From positions 1-64,000 of IMG/VR virus record IMGVR_UViG_3300025418_000694: a DNA stretch of 64,000 bases; one strand, 5' to 3'. Every line of letters starts with the position of its first letter. Position 1 is the first letter of the stretch. The DNA comes from a virus. The notes under the pieces were generated by a model, which made no database searches, was not told the origin of the DNA, and saw nothing but the letters and a program-made list of their open reading frames with translations. This document shows, piece after piece, positions 35,376 to 62,799 of the stretch. The position numbers were made by a program, and so were the translations under genes.

Positions 35376-35499
35376 GGACCAATCCTATCATAAGCGCGAT
35401 GATCCTCACCTTGGGCTACTGCCTAACAAACTTAGGTCATACCTGTGGATTTCACCTGGCAGCCATGTCTATTTGTCGACAATTTAACCCTAGGGGGGT

Positions 35500-35543
35500 C
35501 TGAGAATAGTCTGAGAATAGTCTGAGAATAGGCTGTGAATAAT
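35500..35543 (+). repeat. 11-bp direct-repeat array A (4 units)
   Basis: CTGAGAATAGT at 35500, the same at 35511, CTGAGAATAGG at 35522 and CTGTGAATAAT at 35533, in exact 11-bp register. It lies directly upstream of the GGGAAT box. It is probably an operator array for a tandem-binding regulator. Confidence 0.85.
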
Positions 35544-35547
35544 GGGC

Positions 35548-35574
35548 GGGAATAAATAGGTGATAGGTTTGGTT
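35548..35574 (+). promoter_or_regulatory. ECF (SigR/SigH-type) promoter A, before the sigma gene
   Basis: GGGAAT at 35548-35553, 18 nt, GTT at 35572-35574. This equals the consensus known for SigR/SigH sigma factors. It precedes the phage ECF sigma gene, so the sigma factor probably activates its own transcription. Confidence 0.8.
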
Positions 35575-35616
35575 CACTAAGCAAGTGAGCAAGGGGCTCA
35601 CTGATAGGGGTACAAA

Positions 35617-36111
35617 ATGGACAAGGCACAACTAAGCAAGGACATACTAAACTATCAAGGGATGCTTTATGGTTACGCCATGAAACTAACTAATGGCAAT
35701 TCACATGACTCTCTCGATTTGGTACAGGATACTTTCGAGAAAGCGCTCGCTAATAGTGAGAAGTTTGACGGGGCTAATCTTCAAGCGTGGCTTCACACTA
35801 TCCTCCGCAATCAATTCATCAACGTTTACCGCAAGCAGTCTCGCATGGTAGTGGCTGATGAAACCGCGCTAGTGGAATTAGAAACAGAAACCGCGCCTAG
35901 CGCAGAGTACCGCGCAATTTTCAATCACTTTTCGCCTAAAGTCTCTCAAGCCTTACAGGCTCTAGGGGATGACTTTCTAAAGGTTGTCTACCTAGTAGAC
36001 ATAGAGGGTTTCACTTATGAGGAAACCGCTAATCAACTAGGCGTTAAAACCGCCACAGTAGGCACACGCCTAAACCGCGCACATAAGGTTCTAAGGGAGG
36101 CTCTAGCATGA
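35617..36111 (+). CDS. ECF sigma factor of the SigR/SigH type (164 aa)
   Basis: Region 2 is at about residues 15-75: GMLYGYAMKLTNGNSHDSLD, DLVQDTFEKALANSEKFDG and NLQAWLHTILRNQFINVYRK. Region 4 is at about 115-163: KVVYLVDIEGFTYEETANQL, then GVKTATVGTRLNRAHKVLRE. The AWLxxILxNxxINxYRK and VYxxDxEGFxYxE strings are hallmarks of the SigR/SigH subgroup. There is no anti-sigma RsrA-like zinc gene nearby; a 30-aa membrane peptide is coupled instead. ATG has AGGGG upstream. It probably directs host RNA polymerase to promoters A-E in this window. Confidence 0.85.
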   Translation: MDKAQLSKDILNYQGMLYGYAMKLTNGNSHDSLDLVQDTFEKALANSEKFDGANLQAWLHTILRNQFINVYRKQSRMVVADETALVELETETAPSAEYRAIFNHFSPKVSQALQALGDDFLKVVYLVDIEGFTYEETANQLGVKTATVGTRLNRAHKVLREALA

Positions 36112-36200
36112 ACCCACTCACAAGCGGACTCCCAATCACAATTCTGTGGTTGGGGGCGAGCATAAGTTTCTACCTACTGATTAGGGACTTAACGAAATAA
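36108..36200 (+). CDS. Mini membrane peptide coupled to the sigma gene (30 aa)
   Basis: Its ATG overlaps the sigma stop (ATGA) and has GGGAGG 8 nt upstream, inside the sigma gene. The sequence ILWLGASISFYLLI is a membrane segment between MNPLTSGLPIT and RDLTK. It could tether or inhibit the sigma factor, or be a small toxin-like peptide. Only the sequence and coupling support it. Confidence 0.5.
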   Translation: MNPLTSGLPITILWLGASISFYLLIRDLTK

Positions 36201-36203
36201 GAA

Positions 36204-36226
36204 GGGGCGCGGGAAACCGCGCCTCT
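36204..36226 (+). terminator. Terminator after the sigma operon
   Basis: GGCGCGG at 36206-36212 pairs with CCGCGCC at 36217-36223 around GAAA, extended by flanking pairs. A pyrimidine-rich tail (TCTCTCTCG) follows. Confidence 0.7.
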
Positions 36227-36263
36227 CTCTCGATTCCCCGTAGGGGTATGGGGAGGGTGGGCC

Positions 36264-36273
36264 AACACAAACA
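36264..36273 (+). repeat. AACACAAACA box 1
   Basis: First of six intergenic copies of AACACAAACA, set here in GGGTGGGCCAACACAAACA. The same box recurs at 37397 and 38675, at 39854, and on the opposite strand at 38602 and 39757. Function unknown. Confidence 0.6.
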
Positions 36274-36332
36274 ATTGGCATTGGGAGCAAGGCATTAGGG
36301 AAGTGTTTACAATTCCCTAAAAGTGTTTATTC

Positions 36333-36365
36333 CTGAGAGATTCCTGAGAATTATCTGGAAATTAC
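36333..36365 (+). repeat. 11-bp direct-repeat array B (3 units)
   Basis: CTGAGAGATTC (36333), CTGAGAATTAT (36344), CTGGAAATTAC (36355), in 11-bp register before promoter B. Confidence 0.85.
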
Positions 36366-36369
36366 CTTA

Positions 36370-36396
36370 GGGAATAATAACCAACCCTAACCCGTT
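36370..36396 (+). promoter_or_regulatory. ECF-type promoter B
   Basis: GGGAAT at 36370-36375, 18 nt, GTT at 36394-36396 (within CCCGTTATACAGG). It serves the three-gene operon from 36438. The last 11-bp unit starts 15 nt before the -35 box. Confidence 0.8.
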
Positions 36397-36437
36397 ATAC
36401 AGGTACAAGGTCGGAAACGCCGACAAAAGGGGAAAAA

Positions 36438-36728
36438 ATGAACCACTTATACAAAAGCAATTATTCAAGCCTTACTGATGTAGATGTACAGATGGATGTA
36501 CGCGACAGCACCAACGGGGATGTCATGTTCGAGATGAACATGTCTAGTTGGCATGATAATAATACCTATCATGTCATGGAGCAATTCATCCTTACAGAGG
36601 CGCAGGCGCGCTCACTAAAAGAAGCACTAGAGACTTATCTAGAGGCTAAGTATGATGAGCGTGAAGCAGTTGCCCTAGCGCAATTTGACGCAGTACGTGA
36701 CGACCTATTTGAAGTGGAGGCAGAATAG
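36438..36728 (+). CDS. Hypothetical protein (96 aa)
   Basis: Begins MNHLYKSNYSSLTDVDVQMD. Beta-rich first half (DSTNGDVMFEMNMSSWHDNN) and acidic helical second half (RSLKEALETYLEAKYDEREA). A short AAAAGGGGAAAA precedes the ATG. First gene behind promoter B. Unknown function. Confidence 0.65.
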   Translation: MNHLYKSNYSSLTDVDVQMDVRDSTNGDVMFEMNMSSWHDNNTYHVMEQFILTEAQARSLKEALETYLEAKYDEREAVALAQFDAVRDDLFEVEAE

Positions 36729-36952
36729 TGGAAACACTATCAGCACTAGCAATTAAGAAAGATTCGGTGACTAGAGAAATGCTAGCCAGCGAGTTAGATG
36801 AAATGAACGCAGATTCACGCGCCTATTGTCTAATGCAGGTAATCGGACACCTAGAGTTAGACAAGGCACAAGGTCAAGAGTTATTCCCACTCTGGACAGC
36901 GTGGGTTACTGCTCGCAGTATTAACAATGACGCTTACGGATTGAGGGACTAA
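36728..36952 (+). CDS. Hypothetical protein (74 aa)
   Basis: Starts GTG (METLSALAIKKDSVTREML) overlapping the previous stop. Helical and acidic, with DEMNADSRAYCLMQVIGHLE. Unknown function. Confidence 0.6.
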   Translation: METLSALAIKKDSVTREMLASELDEMNADSRAYCLMQVIGHLELDKAQGQELFPLWTAWVTARSINNDAYGLRD

Positions 36953-37227
36953 TGGGACATAATTTCGCACAAGAATTGGCTAGCGGGGAGTTAACACTCC
37001 CCCTAGAGGAGGCTATAGCGATTCACCTAAGAAGTAATCACTATCCACCCGTACCGCTTTCTATGGTAACCCCCTGTATAGAAGCCATAGATAAATGCAA
37101 CGAGGGTGATTCTGGCGCGCTAATAGACTTACCCGATCCAATTAAATGGAAAGGCGCAAGCCAAGCACCAGCGTATGCAGTAATAGAAGGTCATCACTTA
37201 GAACCATGGGTTCAATGGGATGACTAA
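36952..37227 (+). CDS. Hypothetical protein (91 aa)
   Basis: ATG overlaps the previous stop (TAATG). Product MGHNFAQELASGELTLPLEE, later DKCNEGDSGALIDLPDPIKW and GHHLEPWVQWDD. Acidic and probably globular. Last gene before two terminators. Confidence 0.6.
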   Translation: MGHNFAQELASGELTLPLEEAIAIHLRSNHYPPVPLSMVTPCIEAIDKCNEGDSGALIDLPDPIKWKGASQAPAYAVIEGHHLEPWVQWDD

Positions 37228-37234
37228 CCCCAGA

Positions 37235-37261
37235 TAGGGAGGCTACCCCCTAGCCTCCCTA
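37235..37261 (+). terminator. Terminator after operon B
   Basis: TAGGGAGGCTA at 37235-37245 pairs perfectly with TAGCCTCCCTA at 37251-37261 around a CCCCC loop, then ATTTG. Confidence 0.8.
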
Positions 37262-37333
37262 ATTTGAAATGCTTGCCAAAAGCAAGGCGTGTTATGCCGC
37301 AGCCATAACCGAGGACTCACTCGAACTGGGATT

Positions 37334-37356
37334 AAAGCCACCAAATCGGTGGCTTT
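37334..37356 (+). terminator. Second hairpin terminator
   Basis: AAAGCCACC at 37334-37342 pairs with GGTGGCTTT at 37348-37356 around AAATC, then ACTATTT. Terminates either read-through from operon B or a small RNA from 37262. Confidence 0.7.
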
Positions 37357-37396
37357 ACTATTTAACTCCCTGACGGCATTGGGTTAGGCATTGACC

Positions 37397-37406
37397 AACA
37401 CAAACA
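37397..37406 (+). repeat. AACACAAACA box 2
   Basis: Within GACCAACACAAACATTAGG, upstream of array C. Same orientation as boxes 1, 4 and 6. Confidence 0.6.
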
Positions 37407-37445
37407 TTAGGCTTTCGGGTATTGGCGCAAACTCCCCAAACAAAA

Positions 37446-37489
37446 CTGAGAGATTTCTGAGAATTGGCTGAGAATTGCCTGGAAATAGC
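37446..37489 (+). repeat. 11-bp direct-repeat array C (4 units)
   Basis: CTGAGAGATTT (37446), CTGAGAATTGG (37457), CTGAGAATTGC (37468), CTGGAAATAGC (37479), in exact 11-bp register. Confidence 0.85.
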
Positions 37490-37492
37490 GGC

Positions 37493-37519
37493 GGGAATAA
37501 ATTGGGGTTATGAGCCGTT
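37493..37519 (+). promoter_or_regulatory. ECF-type promoter C
   Basis: GGGAAT at 37493-37498, 18 nt, GTT at 37517-37519 in GCCGTTATACAGATG. The downstream CCGTTATACAG is nearly identical to promoter B. Confidence 0.8.
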
Positions 37520-37563
37520 ATACAGATGAATAGCCACACGGGTTATTCGGGAAAGGTAATCAA

Positions 37564-37758
37564 ATGCTAACTGATACACAATCTCGCGAGATTAACCATC
37601 TCGTATTGCAATTATCTGCTGATTTAACAGTAGCGCCCGACTTTATAGTTGAGGCTATCCGCGAGGATGAAAGCGTAAACGCGCTAGTCTATCGCTGGCT
37701 CACACGTGGGGGAGTGGAATACCGCTCAATCCTAGACCTACTCAATGGGATGTTCTAA
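37564..37758 (+). CDS. Hypothetical protein (64 aa)
   Basis: Begins MLTDTQSREINHLVLQLSAD. Helical, with FIVEAIREDESVNALVYRWL. GGGAAAGG lies upstream of the start. First gene behind promoter C. Unknown function. Confidence 0.6.
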   Translation: MLTDTQSREINHLVLQLSADLTVAPDFIVEAIREDESVNALVYRWLTRGGVEYRSILDLLNGMF

Positions 37759-37964
37759 TGATTAAATTCCCACACACAATTAAATTGGTTGCTGAATTAG
37801 ATGAAAATAATCCAAGCACCAAGGCGCTCCAAGCGCTACCAGAATACCTACAGCATAAATTGCTTGAAGAAGCGTTTATTGGAGCACTAAATAGATTAAG
37901 CGTGTTTGATACCATAAATGAGGGCTCAACATGGGGAATAGTTAAGGTGGATACCAATGGATGA
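37758..37964 (+). CDS. Hypothetical protein (68 aa)
   Basis: ATG overlaps the previous stop (TAATG). Product MIKFPHTIKLVAELDENNPS, then EEAFIGALNRLSVFDTINEG. Unknown function. Confidence 0.6.
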   Translation: MIKFPHTIKLVAELDENNPSTKALQALPEYLQHKLLEEAFIGALNRLSVFDTINEGSTWGIVKVDTNG

Positions 37965-38082
37965 ACAAGCCGAGCGTATCAAGGAGCGCATGTCCGAGGA
38001 GTTAGATGACATCCTAGCCAATGGAGACCTGCAAGCGTTCGAGGAATTATTCGAGGATCGAGACCCGTTCGAATTCCTATAA
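37957..38082 (+). CDS. Acidic mini-protein (41 aa)
   Basis: Starts at ATG 37957 inside the end of the preceding gene. Product MDEQAERIKERMSEELDDIL, then QAFEELFEDRDPFEFL. A strongly acidic helix, which could be a protein-interaction or DNA-mimic peptide. Unknown function. Confidence 0.55.
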   Translation: MDEQAERIKERMSEELDDILANGDLQAFEELFEDRDPFEFL

Positions 38083-38089
38083 CAAAAGT

Positions 38090-38114
38090 GGGGCGGGAAT
38101 AAAAAGCCCGCCCC
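38090..38114 (+). terminator. Terminator with GGGGCGGG stem
   Basis: GGGGCGGG at 38090-38097 pairs with CCCGCCCC at 38107-38114. A terminator with the same A-rich loop style recurs at 39703. It separates the 41-aa gene from the HTH gene, which has its own GGGAGG ribosome site and may depend on partial read-through. Confidence 0.65.
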
Positions 38115-38143
38115 AATCGTTACAGCAACAGAAGGGAGGAAAC

Positions 38144-38476
38144 ATGGAAAATGAAGTAGATGTGCTGCTTAAGCGCCTAAAAGAATTGGGCGTAGAGGCT
38201 AAGCCCGTTCGTGTCAATGAGCGCCAAAAGGCTACGCTACAAAAAATTGTAGAGGCTGATGTCGCTATTAAAGAAGCGCGGGAAACTATCAAGCAGGCTA
38301 CAGAAAATTGGCGCGTATCTAGGGAAACACTAGACCGCCTATTAGTAGAAGCCCGTAAGATGAAAGTAACCCAAGCAGAAATTGGCAAAGCCCTTGGTAT
38401 TAGCAATGGCTCTGTATCAAGTAGGACAATTACGGCACGCCGTAGAGTCCGTAAAAGAAACCGCACCAAGAAATAA
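38144..38476 (+). CDS. HTH-domain protein, putative regulator (110 aa)
   Basis: Start at ATG 38144 after GGGAGGAAAC. A coiled-coil N-terminal half (DVLLKRLKELGVEAKPVRVN; IKEARETIKQATENWRVS) leads to an HTH near residues 75-98 (MKVTQAEIGKALGISNGSVS), and a basic end (ARRRVRKRNRTKK). It is a candidate for the regulator that reads the 11-bp arrays, though nothing in the sequence proves this. Confidence 0.65.
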   Translation: MENEVDVLLKRLKELGVEAKPVRVNERQKATLQKIVEADVAIKEARETIKQATENWRVSRETLDRLLVEARKMKVTQAEIGKALGISNGSVSSRTITARRRVRKRNRTKK

Positions 38477-38601
38477 CCGATAAATTTCTGAGGCTATCCG
38501 TCGCCAATCGAAGCCGTAATTGCCTCAGTTCCCCAAAGTAGGTGGTTGGTTCCCACCTGCTAGAGCGCGGGTATACCTTCCCCCCGCGCTCACCCCTAAA
38601 A

Positions 38602-38611
38602 TGTTTGTGTT
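38602..38611 (-). repeat. AACACAAACA box 3 (inverted)
   Basis: TGTTTGTGTT on the plus strand, followed by GAACCCGCCCGCCCAC. Together with box 4 it brackets a 63-nt segment holding a palindrome. Box 5/6 repeats this arrangement. Confidence 0.65.
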
Positions 38612-38649
38612 GAACCCGCCCGCCCACATGCCTGAAGGGAATAAGCCAA

Positions 38650-38676
38650 TTGGACAATTGTTAAACAATTGTCCAA
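38650..38676. repeat. 27-bp perfect palindrome 1
   Basis: TTGGACAATTGTT at 38650-38662, one A, then AACAATTGTCCAA at 38664-38676. It overlaps the first bases of box 4. Could be an operator or a replication/recombination site, or form a cruciform; there is no U-run. Confidence 0.75.
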
Positions 38677-38684
38677 CACAAACA
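38675..38684 (+). repeat. AACACAAACA box 4
   Basis: Directly overlaps the right arm of palindrome 1 and is followed by TTCCTAGCCC. Box 6 has the same relation to palindrome 2. Confidence 0.65.
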
Positions 38685-38697
38685 TTCCTAGCCCAAA

Positions 38698-38741
38698 GTG
38701 AACATTAGGTGAACATTACCTGAGAGAAACCTGTGAATAGA
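38698..38741 (+). repeat. 11-bp direct-repeat array D (4 units)
   Basis: GTGAACATTAG (38698), GTGAACATTAC (38709), CTGAGAGAAAC (38720), CTGTGAATAGA (38731). It mixes two unit types in one 11-bp register, linking the GTGAAC type to the CTGAGA type. Confidence 0.85.
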
Positions 38742-38744
38742 GAT

Positions 38745-38771
38745 GGGAATAATGAGAGGGTAGTATCCGTT
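38745..38771 (+). promoter_or_regulatory. ECF-type promoter D
   Basis: GGGAAT at 38745-38750, 18 nt, GTT at 38769-38771 in ATCCGTTCTAC. It serves the genes from 38820. Confidence 0.8.
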
Positions 38772-38819
38772 CTACTATTGAAAGCGAAACCAACCAAGCG
38801 CTTTCAGAATAGGACAAAA

Positions 38820-39203
38820 ATGAACACAACTGACACTCTTACAGTATCAAACGAGTTTACTGTAGGCGAACTATGGGAAGCAGTCTGGGGCTGTGACGGA
38901 GCGGGCATGGTCTATTGGTGCTCTAAAATCCGCACTCCAGAAGGCAAGGACATCTATCTTTTCCTCAACAAAGGTGATGAATTTGTCCCCAACCCTCAAC
39001 CTGTCAAAATTTATGACACGACAGGCGTTACTCCTAAAACCTACGTGGTAACTGTCGAGGATTTGCGCCGAGGCTACGAACTAGCACTCAAAGCAGGTCA
39101 GACACATTGCGGAGGTTATCCTCTAGAAATTGACGACGCCGACTCCTGTTTCGGTGACATGGTTATACAGTACGCAATCTTTAACGAATTAGTCTACGGA
39201 TAG
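38820..39203 (+). CDS. Hypothetical protein (127 aa)
   Basis: Start taken at ATG 38820 (MNTTDTLTVSNEFTVGELWE), since the earlier in-frame GTG lies in the promoter. Contains GMVYWCSKIRTPEGKDIYLF and LRRGYELALKAGQTHCGGYP. Acidic and apparently globular, single domain. A similar YxLALxxGQxHCGG shape occurs in unnamed phage proteins. Unknown function. Confidence 0.65.
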   Translation: MNTTDTLTVSNEFTVGELWEAVWGCDGAGMVYWCSKIRTPEGKDIYLFLNKGDEFVPNPQPVKIYDTTGVTPKTYVVTVEDLRRGYELALKAGQTHCGGYPLEIDDADSCFGDMVIQYAIFNELVYG

Positions 39204-39214
39204 GAAGGGAAAAC

Positions 39215-39349
39215 ATGAGCGAAGTAGTATGGCAGAGCCAAATCACAGAGGACATGGTTCAAGATGTAAGCGCCCGTTCGTTCTTATTTGAGGAATTGGA
39301 CGACGCGGTAATGCGAATTTGTCAGGAATACGGGGTAAAATCCCTATGA
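39215..39349 (+). CDS. Mini-protein (44 aa)
   Basis: Begins MSEVVWQSQITEDMVQDVSA after GGAAGGGAAAAC and ends EYGVKSL. Acidic helix. Its stop overlaps the next ATG as ATGA. Confidence 0.55.
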   Translation: MSEVVWQSQITEDMVQDVSARSFLFEELDDAVMRICQEYGVKSL

Positions 39350-39492
39350 GCCGTAGACACTTTCGCGCCCTAGCCGAAGCCCTAAAGGACTCAGGCGCTA
39401 GTTATCAGACTGTGGCTGCTATTGCTAGAGTCTGTGCCAATGAAAACCCAAGATTTGACTCCTCTAAGTTCTTTGAGGCGTGTGGCGTATGA
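39346..39492 (+). CDS. Mini-protein (48 aa)
   Basis: Begins MSRRHFRALAEALKDSGASY, then VAAIARVCANENPRFDSSKF. Basic helix with a Cys-containing end. Such short proteins are common in actinophages, with no known role. ATGA overlaps on both sides. Confidence 0.6.
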   Translation: MSRRHFRALAEALKDSGASYQTVAAIARVCANENPRFDSSKFFEACGV

Positions 39493-39656
39493 CTACCTAT
39501 AACACAGTAGTGCGCTTATACGCCTCAATAGAGGCAGAAACAGAGGAACAAGCAGAGTCAAGACTCCATGACTACATGAATAGCGTGGGTCTAGTTCCTA
39601 GTAATTGCGTTGTAGTCGCCGATTATGACGTAACAGACTTCGACAAGGAGGATTGA
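39489..39656 (+). CDS. Small protein (55 aa)
   Basis: Begins MTTYNTVVRLYASIEAETEE, then AESRLHDYMNSVGLVPSNCV. A beta-alpha-beta pattern with an acidic end. Coupled by ATGA to the gene before. Unknown function. Confidence 0.6.
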   Translation: MTTYNTVVRLYASIEAETEEQAESRLHDYMNSVGLVPSNCVVVADYDVTDFDKED

Positions 39657-39702
39657 CGGAGACTAGCCGAGCCTGTCCTAGCCGTAATTGTATCCGTCAA
39701 GG

Positions 39703-39728
39703 GCGGTGGGAAGTAAAAAGCCCACCGC
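39703..39728 (+). terminator. Terminator with GCGGTGGG stem
   Basis: GCGGTGGG at 39703-39710 pairs with CCCACCGC at 39721-39728, with loop AAGTAAAAAG. It ends operon D. Confidence 0.7.
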
Positions 39729-39756
39729 TATACAAAAAGCGCGGAAATGTCTAAAT

Positions 39757-39766
39757 TGTTTGTGTT
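39757..39766 (-). repeat. AACACAAACA box 5 (inverted)
   Basis: TGTTTGTGTT on the plus strand followed by GACCCACCCACCCAC. Matches box 3, which has GAACCCGCCCGCCCAC next to it. Confidence 0.65.
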
Positions 39767-39798
39767 GACCCACCCACCCACGTACCTAAATACGACAT

Positions 39799-39823
39799 CT
39801 TATTCCGCAATAAGCGGAATAAG
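39799..39823. repeat. 10-bp inverted repeat
   Basis: CTTATTCCGC at 39799-39808 pairs with GCGGAATAAG at 39814-39823 around AATAA. It occupies the place between the inverted box and the palindrome. Confidence 0.65.
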
Positions 39824-39826
39824 CAT

Positions 39827-39855
39827 TTGGGCTAATTGTTTAACAATTAGCCCAA
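39827..39855. repeat. 29-bp perfect palindrome 2
   Basis: TTGGGCTAATTGTT at 39827-39840, one T, AACAATTAGCCCAA at 39842-39855. It shares the central AATTGTT(N)AACAATT with palindrome 1 and overlaps box 6 in the same way. Confidence 0.75.
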
Positions 39856-39863
39856 CACAAACA
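39854..39863 (+). repeat. AACACAAACA box 6
   Basis: Overlaps the right arm of palindrome 2, followed by TTCCCGCCCC. Confidence 0.65.
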
Positions 39864-39876
39864 TTCCCGCCCCAAG

Positions 39877-39942
39877 ATGAACATTAGATGAACATTAACT
39901 GAGAGATTGCTGAGAGATTACTGAGAGAAGGCTGAGAGCCAA
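39877..39942 (+). repeat. 11-bp direct-repeat array E2 (6 units, no ECF promoter)
   Basis: ATGAACATTAG (39877), ATGAACATTAA (39888), CTGAGAGATTG (39899), CTGAGAGATTA (39910), CTGAGAGAAGG (39921), CTGAGAGCCAA (39932). No GGGAAT follows. Instead a TATAGT at 39945-39950 and a long hairpin lie just after it. Confidence 0.8.
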
Positions 39943-39973
39943 TCTATAGTAGAGTGAGAGTCTGCTATAGATT
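39941..39973 (+). ncRNA. Possible structured RNA start: 12-bp hairpin
   Basis: AATCTATAGTAG at 39941-39952 pairs with CTGCTATAGATT at 39962-39973 (one G-U), loop AGTGAGAGT. It lies directly after a six-unit repeat array and before 100 nt without a gene. It may be the start of a small RNA, a terminator (an A-run follows, not a U-run), or an operator. Confidence 0.35.
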
Positions 39974-40089
39974 AAAAATGGACACGCCTTCGGCTACTGT
40001 CTAAAGAACGAAGTGAGAGTGTAGCGATACGTCCAGATTATTGCTATATGTCCGATTTGTCTTATATGATAACAATCTCTGCGATTACT

Positions 40090-40122
40090 GTTCACCTTCC
40101 GTTCACCTTCCGTTCATCTACT
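40090..40122 (+). repeat. PHO-box-like 11-bp array E (3 units)
   Basis: GTTCACCTTCC at 40090 and 40101, then GTTCATCTACT at 40112. GTTCACC in 11-nt direct repeats is the published PhoP-binding PHO box of Streptomyces. It lies in the same phase to the -35 box as arrays A-D. Confidence 0.75.
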
Positions 40123-40125
40123 TAG

Positions 40126-40152
40126 GGGAATATATATCTACTCTATTCCGTT
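40126..40152 (+). promoter_or_regulatory. ECF-type promoter E
   Basis: GGGAAT at 40126-40131, 18 nt, GTT at 40150-40152. The last PHO-box-like unit begins 14 nt before the -35, as in C and D. It drives the AAA/VWA operon. Confidence 0.8.
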
Positions 40153-43844: not shown

Positions 43845-44084
43845 ATGAGCGAACACCACTTTGTAATCAAGTTCAACACAAACAATGGGCGGTTCGATTG
43901 GGATTCAGATACCGAGTCGGCTCGATTCCCCGAAGGCGCTATCTATCTTTCAGAGGTCAATAAATGGGTGGATTCCTCATATAACGATTCTCTGAACCAA
44001 ATAGACACACAAGCAGGTGAGGCGCTTAGTCAAACCCTAAACGTATTAAACCTGATGTACGAACAAGCAGGAAACAAGGAATAA
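43845..44084 (+). CDS. Hypothetical protein (79 aa)
   Basis: Begins MSEHHFVIKFNTNNGRFDWD and ends LNLMYEQAGNKE. Contains AACACAAACA in its DNA at 43875. Beta-rich first half, helical end. Unknown function. Confidence 0.6.
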   Translation: MSEHHFVIKFNTNNGRFDWDSDTESARFPEGAIYLSEVNKWVDSSYNDSLNQIDTQAGEALSQTLNVLNLMYEQAGNKE

Positions 44085-45095: not shown

Positions 45096-45412
45096 TGTCT
45101 AATAAACTTACAGACCTGTACGAAAAAGAAATGGTAGGCGCTGAACTTACGAATAAAGCGGTGGTAATCAAATCTAAACACCTAGAGGGCAGTAAGTATA
45201 TTGTCCTTGCCGTTCGTAAAGTTCCAGCAGAACCTCTCTATGATGAGCGAGATGTTGAGAAAACAACTCCTATTTATCACCGCCCATATATTGTATGGCA
45301 GGTGGATAAAAAGACTATGCGACCTATGAGTGGAGAGTATGCTCTGACACTAGAGGAAGCAGAGGAAGTCTATGAAATATATGGGAATAAAAAGAAGTTC
45401 TTAATCGTTTAA
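45095..45412 (+). CDS. Hypothetical protein, paralogue of 44648 gene (105 aa)
   Basis: Begins MSNKLTDLYEKEMVGAELTN. Related to the 96-aa gene by tandem duplication. ATG overlaps the previous stop (TAATG). Its mid-section (EKTTPIYHRPYIVWQVDKKT) is longer. Unknown function. Confidence 0.65.
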   Translation: MSNKLTDLYEKEMVGAELTNKAVVIKSKHLEGSKYIVLAVRKVPAEPLYDERDVEKTTPIYHRPYIVWQVDKKTMRPMSGEYALTLEEAEEVYEIYGNKKKFLIV

Positions 45413-57876: not shown

Positions 57877-58320
57877 TCACTTAATTTTAATGGTTCGCGG
57901 CTTCATTTCCTCGGGCAACTCACGGTCTAATTTAATGGTAAGTATTCCGTCTTCCATCTCAGCCGAAGTCACATTAACGTAGTCAGCTAATGGGAAGGTT
58001 TGAGTGAAGTTACGAGTGGCGATACCTTTGTGGAAGTAGGCATCGGTAGACTCTTCTTCTTTGTCTCCTGTAACAGTTAGTACTCCGTTTGAGTAGGTCA
58101 CACGAATGTCGGATTTCTTAAACCCAGCTACCGCAAATCTAATCTCATACTTGTTTTCTTCAATAGAAAGTATGTCATAGGGTGGGTATTTAGCGGGGGA
58201 ACCAGCGTTTAGAATTTCTTCAAAGAACTTGAACTGGTTATGAAACCCAACTCCCCGATTAATAAGGGAATTTGTTAGGGTTGAGTGATCGAATGTTGCA
58301 ATATAGGCGTTAGCCATCAT
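57877..58320 (-). CDS. Hsp20/alpha-crystallin small heat-shock protein (147 aa)
   Basis: Residues about 30-147 form an alpha-crystallin domain: YDILSIEENKYEIRFAVAGF, KKSDIRVTYSNGVLTVTGDK and a late LADYVNVTSAEMEDGILTIK with PEEMKPRTIKIK. The N-terminal arm is short. AAGGAG lies upstream of the first ATG. It probably protects phage or host proteins from aggregation; T4-like cyanophages carry comparable genes. Confidence 0.85.
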   Translation of the reverse strand: MMANAYIATFDHSTLTNSLINRGVGFHNQFKFFEEILNAGSPAKYPPYDILSIEENKYEIRFAVAGFKKSDIRVTYSNGVLTVTGDKEEESTDAYFHKGIATRNFTQTFPLADYVNVTSAEMEDGILTIKLDRELPEEMKPRTIKIK

Positions 58321-60067: not shown

Positions 60068-60616
60068 TTAGTATTTGTGCTGCTCTATCTCAATAAACGG
60101 GCCTGAGGTATAAACGTCTAGTGAAGCTGCAATCTCTAGGGCTTCTCCAATAGAAGCGCCAGCGTGAAGGGCGCCTAGCGCATAGGATGAACCATTCCCT
60201 ACCCCATAAAAACCTGTGTCTGTTCTACATACAGATAGGTCGTCTGCAACATCAAATACTTCTCCGTTGACTGCTATAAGGAAATGAAACCTAGGACCGT
60301 CATCTCCTTCTTTGCGCTCTTCGTCAAAGTTGTAGCCGTTAGACTTCAAGCATTCTCTAAGTGAGGGCATGGCTTTTGCAATCATAAAGTGGTAAATGTC
60401 TTTTTTGTCCGATGCTGTAAGTGAGGGTGGCTTCCAAAGGTGCTGGGCAATGTCACATGGCTGCACCTCACCACTACCACCAATTAAGAAAGATCCTCGC
60501 TCACTAATCTTTTCCATGTTGGGGTGCCTAAAGATACGGCCTGAGCCGTCTGTGACTTGGTTATCTGCCCCTAAGACGCATCGATCGGGGTACTGAACAG
60601 CTACTATGGTTGTCAA
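60068..60616 (-). CDS. Proteasome/HslV-like Ntn hydrolase (182 aa)
   Basis: After Met removal the N-terminal Thr begins TTIVAVQYPDRCVLGADNQV, like HslV (TTIV...G) and proteasome beta subunits. The basic Lys counterpart lies in PNMEKISERGSFLIGGSG, and the loop FYGVGNGSSYALGALHAGAS is the typical glycine-rich helix start. Length is near HslV (about 174). Partner ATPase and ubiquitin-like tag genes are absent. Possibly a self-compartmentalised protease that acts with host or phage ATPases. Confidence 0.75.
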   Translation of the reverse strand: MTTIVAVQYPDRCVLGADNQVTDGSGRIFRHPNMEKISERGSFLIGGSGEVQPCDIAQHLWKPPSLTASDKKDIYHFMIAKAMPSLRECLKSNGYNFDEERKEGDDGPRFHFLIAVNGEVFDVADDLSVCRTDTGFYGVGNGSSYALGALHAGASIGEALEIAASLDVYTSGPFIEIEQHKY

Positions 60617-62481: not shown

Positions 62482-62799
62482 TCACGACTCTTTGGTTAAT
62501 ACCCACTCCTTTAGTGTCATACCTGCGCGTGTCGCCTTACGCTTAAGGGCATTACGCTCACGGTGACTCATGCCACCCCAAATTCCGTGCGTGTCTTCCA
62601 TCTCCTCCGCATACAGTAAGCACTGCTTACGTACGGGGCATTCAGGAAGACCGTCTTTACCGTAGCAAATAGCTTTTGCTCGGTCAGCAATATCTTTATA
62701 TTGGTCTTTATCTCTTGGCGGGTACCAAGTATTAGTGTCTATTCCTCGACACTTGGCTTTGTATCTCCAAGGTTCTGGTCCGAGATCTTCGTCGTACAA
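62482..62799 (-). CDS. WhiB-family regulator (105 aa)
   Basis: TTG start 8 nt after AGGAG. Cys17, Cys45, Cys54 and Cys60 are the four cluster ligands, and HGIWGGMSHRERNALKRK is the conserved G-W-G turn with the basic C-terminal part. WhiB proteins bind a [4Fe-4S] cluster and act with sigma factors, only in Actinobacteria and their phages. The usual C-x2-C is C-x8-C here because of an insertion (YGKDGLPE). Confidence 0.85.
   Translation of the reverse strand: MYDEDLGPEPWRYKAKCRGIDTNTWYPPRDKDQYKDIADRAKAICYGKDGLPECPVRKQCLLYAEEMEDTHGIWGGMSHRERNALKRKATRAGMTLKEWVLTKES

Follow-up and report, generated by a model that had tools for sequence, protein, structure and literature searches.

A candidate extracytoplasmic function sigma factor regulon with phased 11-bp repeat arrays in a phage genome

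T4-type phages carry PeSL cassettes, in which an early promoter and a stem-loop are placed between early genes. Phages of the Bacillota encode sporulation-like sigma factors that redirect the host polymerase (PMC9429907). The published promoter consensus of SigR/SigH is GGAAT-N18-GTT (PMC3489674), and PHO boxes are tandem 11-nt direct repeats with a 7+4 layout and, in Streptomyces, the core GTTCACC (review PMC4415409). Cyanophage transcription that depends on phosphate and involves host PhoB and pho boxes has also been described (PMC10976474). The locus described here lies in the first 64,000 nucleotides (the window) of IMG/VR virus record IMGVR_UViG_3300025418_000694, which has a full length of 95,817 bp. 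It comprises a gene at 35617 for an extracytoplasmic function (ECF) sigma factor and a set of GGGAAT-N18-GTT boxes, five of which carry an adjoining array of 11-bp repeats. Judging from the sequence, it is probable that this sigma factor works with the host core polymerase to drive the phased-array promoters, including that of its own gene, in a self-amplifying manner. Searches of the open literature turned up no account of an actinophage with an ECF sigma regulon, which is weak evidence of novelty as subscription papers lie mostly outside it.

Promoter boxes, repeat arrays and leaders

The window contains eight exact matches to GGGAAT-N18-GTT on its two strands against a mean of 0.48 (sd 0.63) in shuffled sequence, and none of 100 shuffles reached eight. 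This bears out the original prediction of a multi-promoter set; its chance expectation of about one match was slightly high. The enrichment is limited to the 18-base spacing, with zero or one match for each of the other spacings from 12 to 23. The full record yields the identical eight matches, clustered within about 10 kb of its 95.8 kb, and none for the reversed control pattern. Five of the boxes, all named in the original prediction, end 41-59 nt 5' of the starts of plus-strand open reading frames (ORFs), and these five are the convincing candidates for promoters. One of them precedes the sigma gene itself, as had been claimed.

35548..35574, plus strand: promoter box GGGAATA-N17-GTT at the start of the rightward block, before the sigma gene; the same box stands at the homologous block start in the related records G006, G007 and G044
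35617..36111, plus strand: ECF sigma factor gene, 164 aa, regions 2 and 4 only (Pfam, solved relative, PHROG)
36370..36396, plus strand: promoter box before the operon 36438-36728-36952
37493..37519, plus strand: promoter box before the operon 37564-37758
38745..38771, plus strand: promoter box before the operon 38820-39653
40126..40152, plus strand: promoter box before the operon 40212 (AAA_5 ATPase, from Pfam)-41593 and onwards
45383..45409, plus strand: possible further promoter without an array, at the 3' end of ORF 45095 and just 5' of ORF 45430

The three remaining exact matches (38095+, 45383+ and 39842(-)) had been missed, and the 11-bp array is absent at all of them. The match at 38095+ falls inside a terminator-like hairpin (GGGGCGGG-aataaaaa-CCCGCCCC) 5' of the helix-turn-helix (HTH) ORF 38144; as promoters, it and 45383+ are ambiguous. 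There is no ORF behind the match at 39842-39868(-), which is probably due to chance. The consensus of nine promoters, the five array-bearing boxes and four in related phages, is GGGAATA-N17-GTT[C/A][T/A]A. These boxes match the SigR/SigH consensus (PMC3489674), in agreement with the original prediction. A sequence at 44078, AGGAATA-N17-GTTATA, stands just 5' of ORF 44133 and may be a weaker promoter of the same class.

An 11-bp repeat array is located directly 5' of each of the five boxes, next to the -35 element. Ranked by period-11 score, the top six stretches of the record (31 to 21 of 33; the next is 18) all fall in 35.5-40.1 kb, and five of these six arrays precede a box.

35499..35543, plus strand: array of three TCTGAGAATAG and one GCTGTGAATAA that ends beside the -35; top period-11 score in the record (31/33), with TG at -47, -36, -25 and -14 from the box
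36331..36364, plus strand: array CCTGAGAGATT CCTGAGAATTA TCTGGAAATTA (period-11 score and phase)
37445..37489, plus strand: array of 4 units (period-11 score and phase)
38697..38741, plus strand: array of two GTGAACATTAG, CTGAGAGAAAC and CTGTGAATAGA, with the PHO-box core on the minus strand at 38699-38714
39876..39940, plus strand: sixth array, without a GGGAAT box and followed by an extended -10-like TGCTATAGATT (period-11 score)
40090..40122, plus strand: array GTTCACCTTCC GTTCACCTTCC GTTCATCTACT in the opposite orientation, with the Streptomyces PHO-box core

The forward arrays keep a fixed phase: counted from the box, their repeats start at -13/14, -24/25, -35/36 and -46/47. Array units of G007, G006 and G044 take positions near -15/16 and -26/27. 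Across 1.09 Mb of related loci, a score of 22/33 or more is reached by just one further array, which is A-rich and lies in L080; those of the relatives are shorter and score below this threshold. In the region 39876-39975, the sixth array is followed by an inverted repeat and TGCTATAGATT, perhaps an activator-dependent promoter for a host sigma.

The leaders between box and gene are also structured. Together the five fold to -46.6 kcal/mol against -24.6 +/- 4.4 in shuffles (0/500). Those of 35548, 36370, 37493 and 38745 are individually below their shuffles (fraction 0.000-0.032), and the leader of 40126 folds no better than shuffled sequence (fraction 0.50). Arrays, leader hairpins and terminators are new here, added to the earlier observation of boxes and sigma gene.

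35584..35602, plus strand: leader hairpin in the sigma transcript (folding against shuffles)
36206..36223, plus strand: terminator-like hairpin closing the sigma unit (sequence)
37237..37259, plus strand: terminator-like hairpin closing the 36438-37227 operon (sequence)
38090..38114, plus strand: terminator-like hairpin containing the start of the extra match 38095 (sequence)
38144..38476, plus strand: small HTH protein within the block, with a sigma region-4-like HTH (Pfam Sigma70_r4 5.5e-7; PHROG HTH DNA-binding)

The 10-mer CAACACAAAC occurs 13 times in the record against an expectation of about 0.2; copies lie at cassette borders as well as within genes. It is present at 36263, 37396, 38674 and 39853 (+) and at 38612 and 39767 (-), as well as in G013 and other relatives. 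It was rejected as a promoter part, as it recurs across the phage group and lies partly inside genes. The protein of 41593 has no Pfam match; a VWA domain was read by eye only.

The sigma factor and its relatives

The identity of the 35617 product as a sigma factor, as originally proposed, is confirmed by Pfam domains Sigma70_r2 (1.5e-15, residues 12-76) and Sigma70_r4_2 (5.6e-8, residues 111-155). Regions 2 and 4 without region 3 are the layout of an ECF sigma. The best solved relative is SigH of M. tuberculosis (2e-22), and the protein matches the PHROG 1740 sigma factor at 1.4e-25. Among 397 actinobacterial genomes, the closest cellular matches are SigH/SigR (45-46% identity), and the phage sigma finds a match in 179 of these genomes at E<=1e-12.

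Membership of the SigR/SigH family, which had also been proposed, is not upheld. The top curated model, TIGR02947 (SigH), gives 108.7 bits, below its cut-off of 251.55, and the one cellular match checked (L227) scores 283.2 bits, above it. The zinc-associated anti-sigma (ZAS) motif HxxxCxxC, which marks the neighbour of SigR/SigH genes, does not occur on the plus strand of 34-48 kb; it lies just downstream in all 30 cellular matches fetched, including L235, a SigE-like paralogue of Klenkia. In trees the phage sigma groups with SigH and a Bacteroidota/Chlorobi set, apart from the SigE-like proteins (support 92/91), on a very long branch. As to its place within this wider SigH assemblage, the approximately unbiased (AU) test gives p 0.24 for the SigH clade, as it does for a SigE-like placement, so that neither is rejected. 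The proposed likeness of regions 2 and 4 to SigR/SigH holds for region 2, with 47-52% identity to SigH and 33-35% to SigE-like proteins and a SigH-like region 2.4 motif, NxxINxYRK. It does not hold for region 4, which is slightly closer to SigE-like proteins (53-54%) than to SigH (44-47%). A 30-aa single-pass membrane peptide ORF (36108-36200) overlaps the sigma stop (ATGA); none was seen after the sigma of G007.

The sigma of G007 is 29-32% identical to 35617, depending on the aligner. It has GGGAATA-N17-GTT immediately upstream at 654(-), and there is a second box at 1784(-). This same box before the gene of a diverged sigma supports a pairing of box and sigma. G006 has its box at the homologous block start, 1155(-), in a contig that ends before the sigma position, and G044 has one at the homologous block start, found in a composite-pattern scan of all IMG/VR that returned only G007 and G044. 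In G000, G006, G007 and G044, a conserved stretch, TTAACC..GGGGGGTCT, comes before the first box. The ORF adjoining the first promoter in G006, G007 and G044 matches only those three contigs, and the terminase matches hundreds of IMG/VR contigs. Clusters of the DnaA-box-like TTATCCACA were seen before the G007 sigma unit and at the same place in G006 (L084 790-850, L085 80-140).

Two near-complete relatives lack both elements. G008 (100 kb) is without the sigma and has no box; G013 (98 kb) keeps the same block edge and has no sigma match and no box. In place of the GGGAAT boxes, the plus strand of the G013 block (L090-L091, 16.6-22.6 kb) holds four copies of GGCGTGTCG/TG, a repeated GGCGTGT[C/T]G motif. 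The other 40 records without a detected sigma hold two boxes in total, one in G006 and one in G030. A single-protein search of IMG/VR gave no close sigma relatives. A two-sequence alignment search gave 12 loci. G007 alone among them belongs to this phage group; the exact GGGAAT-N18-GTT motif is absent from the others.

It appears likely that the host is an actinobacterium, because the terminase is about 53% identical to that of the BRock group of Streptomyces phages (Borockvirus), the closest cultured relatives, and a WhiB-like gene agrees with this.

62482-62799, minus strand: WhiB-like regulator gene (Pfam Whib 6.2e-17), 72% identical in G013 and G008

The phage ribonucleotide reductase has no match in the 397 actinobacterial genomes, and none of the small low-GC actinobacterial genomes considered by GC comparison could be named as host. 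Elsewhere in the window, by eye, 60068-60616 (-) resembles an Ntn-hydrolase/proteasome-beta protein and 57877-58320 (-) an Hsp20 protein.

A proposed circuit and its alternatives

In the favoured reading, the ECF-type sigma would bind the host core RNA polymerase and direct it to the phage-specific GGGAATA-N17-GTT[C/A][T/A]A set. In the rightward block, which is probably early, this would drive the sigma's own gene and four or more of the operons that follow it. Self-amplification is probable, because one of the promoters precedes the sigma gene and the block holds no zinc anti-sigma gene. The initial start could come from a host SigH/SigR-type holoenzyme, from basal transcription or from an activator. 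The in-phase arrays are probably activator sites, most likely the landing site for a DNA-binding protein of the OmpR/PhoB kind that would touch region 4 of the sigma or the alpha subunit. Leader hairpins and terminators would make each unit a self-contained cassette.

Several observations weigh against this circuit. The sigma is present in one of the 43 other records searched, many of these being fragments. The promoter is the same for the G007 sigma, although that protein is without the SigH-like NxxINxYRK motif; the sequence therefore does not reveal specificity. The units vary between promoters, and one array is reversed. A host sigma could also use the boxes, because they match the host SigH/SigR consensus. 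It is nonetheless quite unlikely that they chiefly serve host SigH/SigR, tapping a thiol/heat-stress response, with the phage sigma serving other promoters or host genes. Sigmas of that kind are common in the phylum, as the 179 genomes attest; the box, however, precedes the sigma gene in both sigma-bearing phages and is absent from G008 and G013, and sigma-less relatives of the same group should profit too were host SigH the main user. A chance or compositional origin is scarcely credible: the motif is short, with nine fixed bases, but the count of matches, their fixed spacing, the fixed array phase and homologous sites in three other contigs refute it.

The arrays can be read in more than one way within the sigma-driven circuit. 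Their OmpR/PhoB-family PHO-box layout suggests input from a host activator. It is rather unlikely, though a lead compatible with the sigma part, that they are true PHO boxes through which host PhoP activates the sigma-dependent promoters and the phage reads phosphate limitation. All six are tandem 11-nt direct repeats as in the 7+4 layout (PMC4415409), GTTCACC-N4-GTTCA is present four times in the record, with three copies in the arrays, where a simple calculation from equal base frequencies gives about 0.01, and the described cyanophage case (PMC10976474) offers a precedent. Yet the GTTCACC core is found in two of the six arrays, and most other units are TGAGAAT or TGAGAGA, with only TGA common to the PhoP core. 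No PhoH domain was found in the 95.8-kb record. Other OmpR-family regulators and SARPs (Streptomyces antibiotic regulatory proteins) also use 11-bp repeats. A stronger candidate for the arrays, though still short of probable, is a role as binding sites for a phage regulator, for instance the HTH product of 38144, or as an alpha-subunit upstream element. The 38144 product is a small DNA-binding protein within the very block that holds the strongest period-11 arrays, but no homologue occurs in the fetched loci of the array-bearing G007, G006 and G044, whose contigs are cut off; as for an upstream element, the arrays are not A-tracts. A full two-input switch, with the phage sigma setting which promoters fire and a host phosphate-type response regulator on the arrays setting when, is unlikely; if true, the early programme would be gated by host nutrient state and amplified by the phage's own sigma, and the module would be exchangeable, since G013 has a different motif in the homologous block.

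Comparison with described systems

If the sigma-driven circuit is correct, an ECF stress-sigma code has been turned into a phage transcription programme. The candidate regulon can be tested directly with one protein and five to seven templates, in a group related to cultured Streptomyces phages. Through the phased arrays it can be asked whether the nutrient state of the host is sensed by such phages, and, with another motif in a sigma-less relative, the block amounts to a natural experiment on the exchange of promoter codes. The BRock group, the nearest in culture by terminase, has neither an ECF sigma match nor a GGGAAT-N18-GTT box.

The 35617 sigma resembles SigR/SigH (TIGR02947) in its two domains, its closest cellular matches, its region 2.4 motif and the same -35/-10 consensus and spacing. 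It differs in its sub-threshold score, its length of 164 aa, the lack of an adjacent ZAS anti-sigma, its very long branch and a region 4 that is no closer to SigH than to SigE-like proteins. The arrays share with PHO boxes and PhoB-PhoP repeats (PMC4415409) the head-to-tail 11-bp units next to the -35 and, in two arrays, GTTCACC; unlike them, they are candidate sites by sequence, stand on ECF promoters in a phage and have mostly another core. The recurrence of a terminator and a promoter between genes along a probably early block recalls T4 PeSL, in which the promoter is of the host sigma-70 type, whereas here an ECF promoter is joined to repeat arrays. As with phage sigmas that have their own promoter class (SPO1 gp28/gp34, T4 gp55), a phage sigma would redirect the host polymerase to phage genes. 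In contrast to these and to the Bacillota phage sigmas, the present one is of the ECF type and comes from a likely actinophage, its own gene belongs to the promoter set, and the promoters carry repeat arrays.

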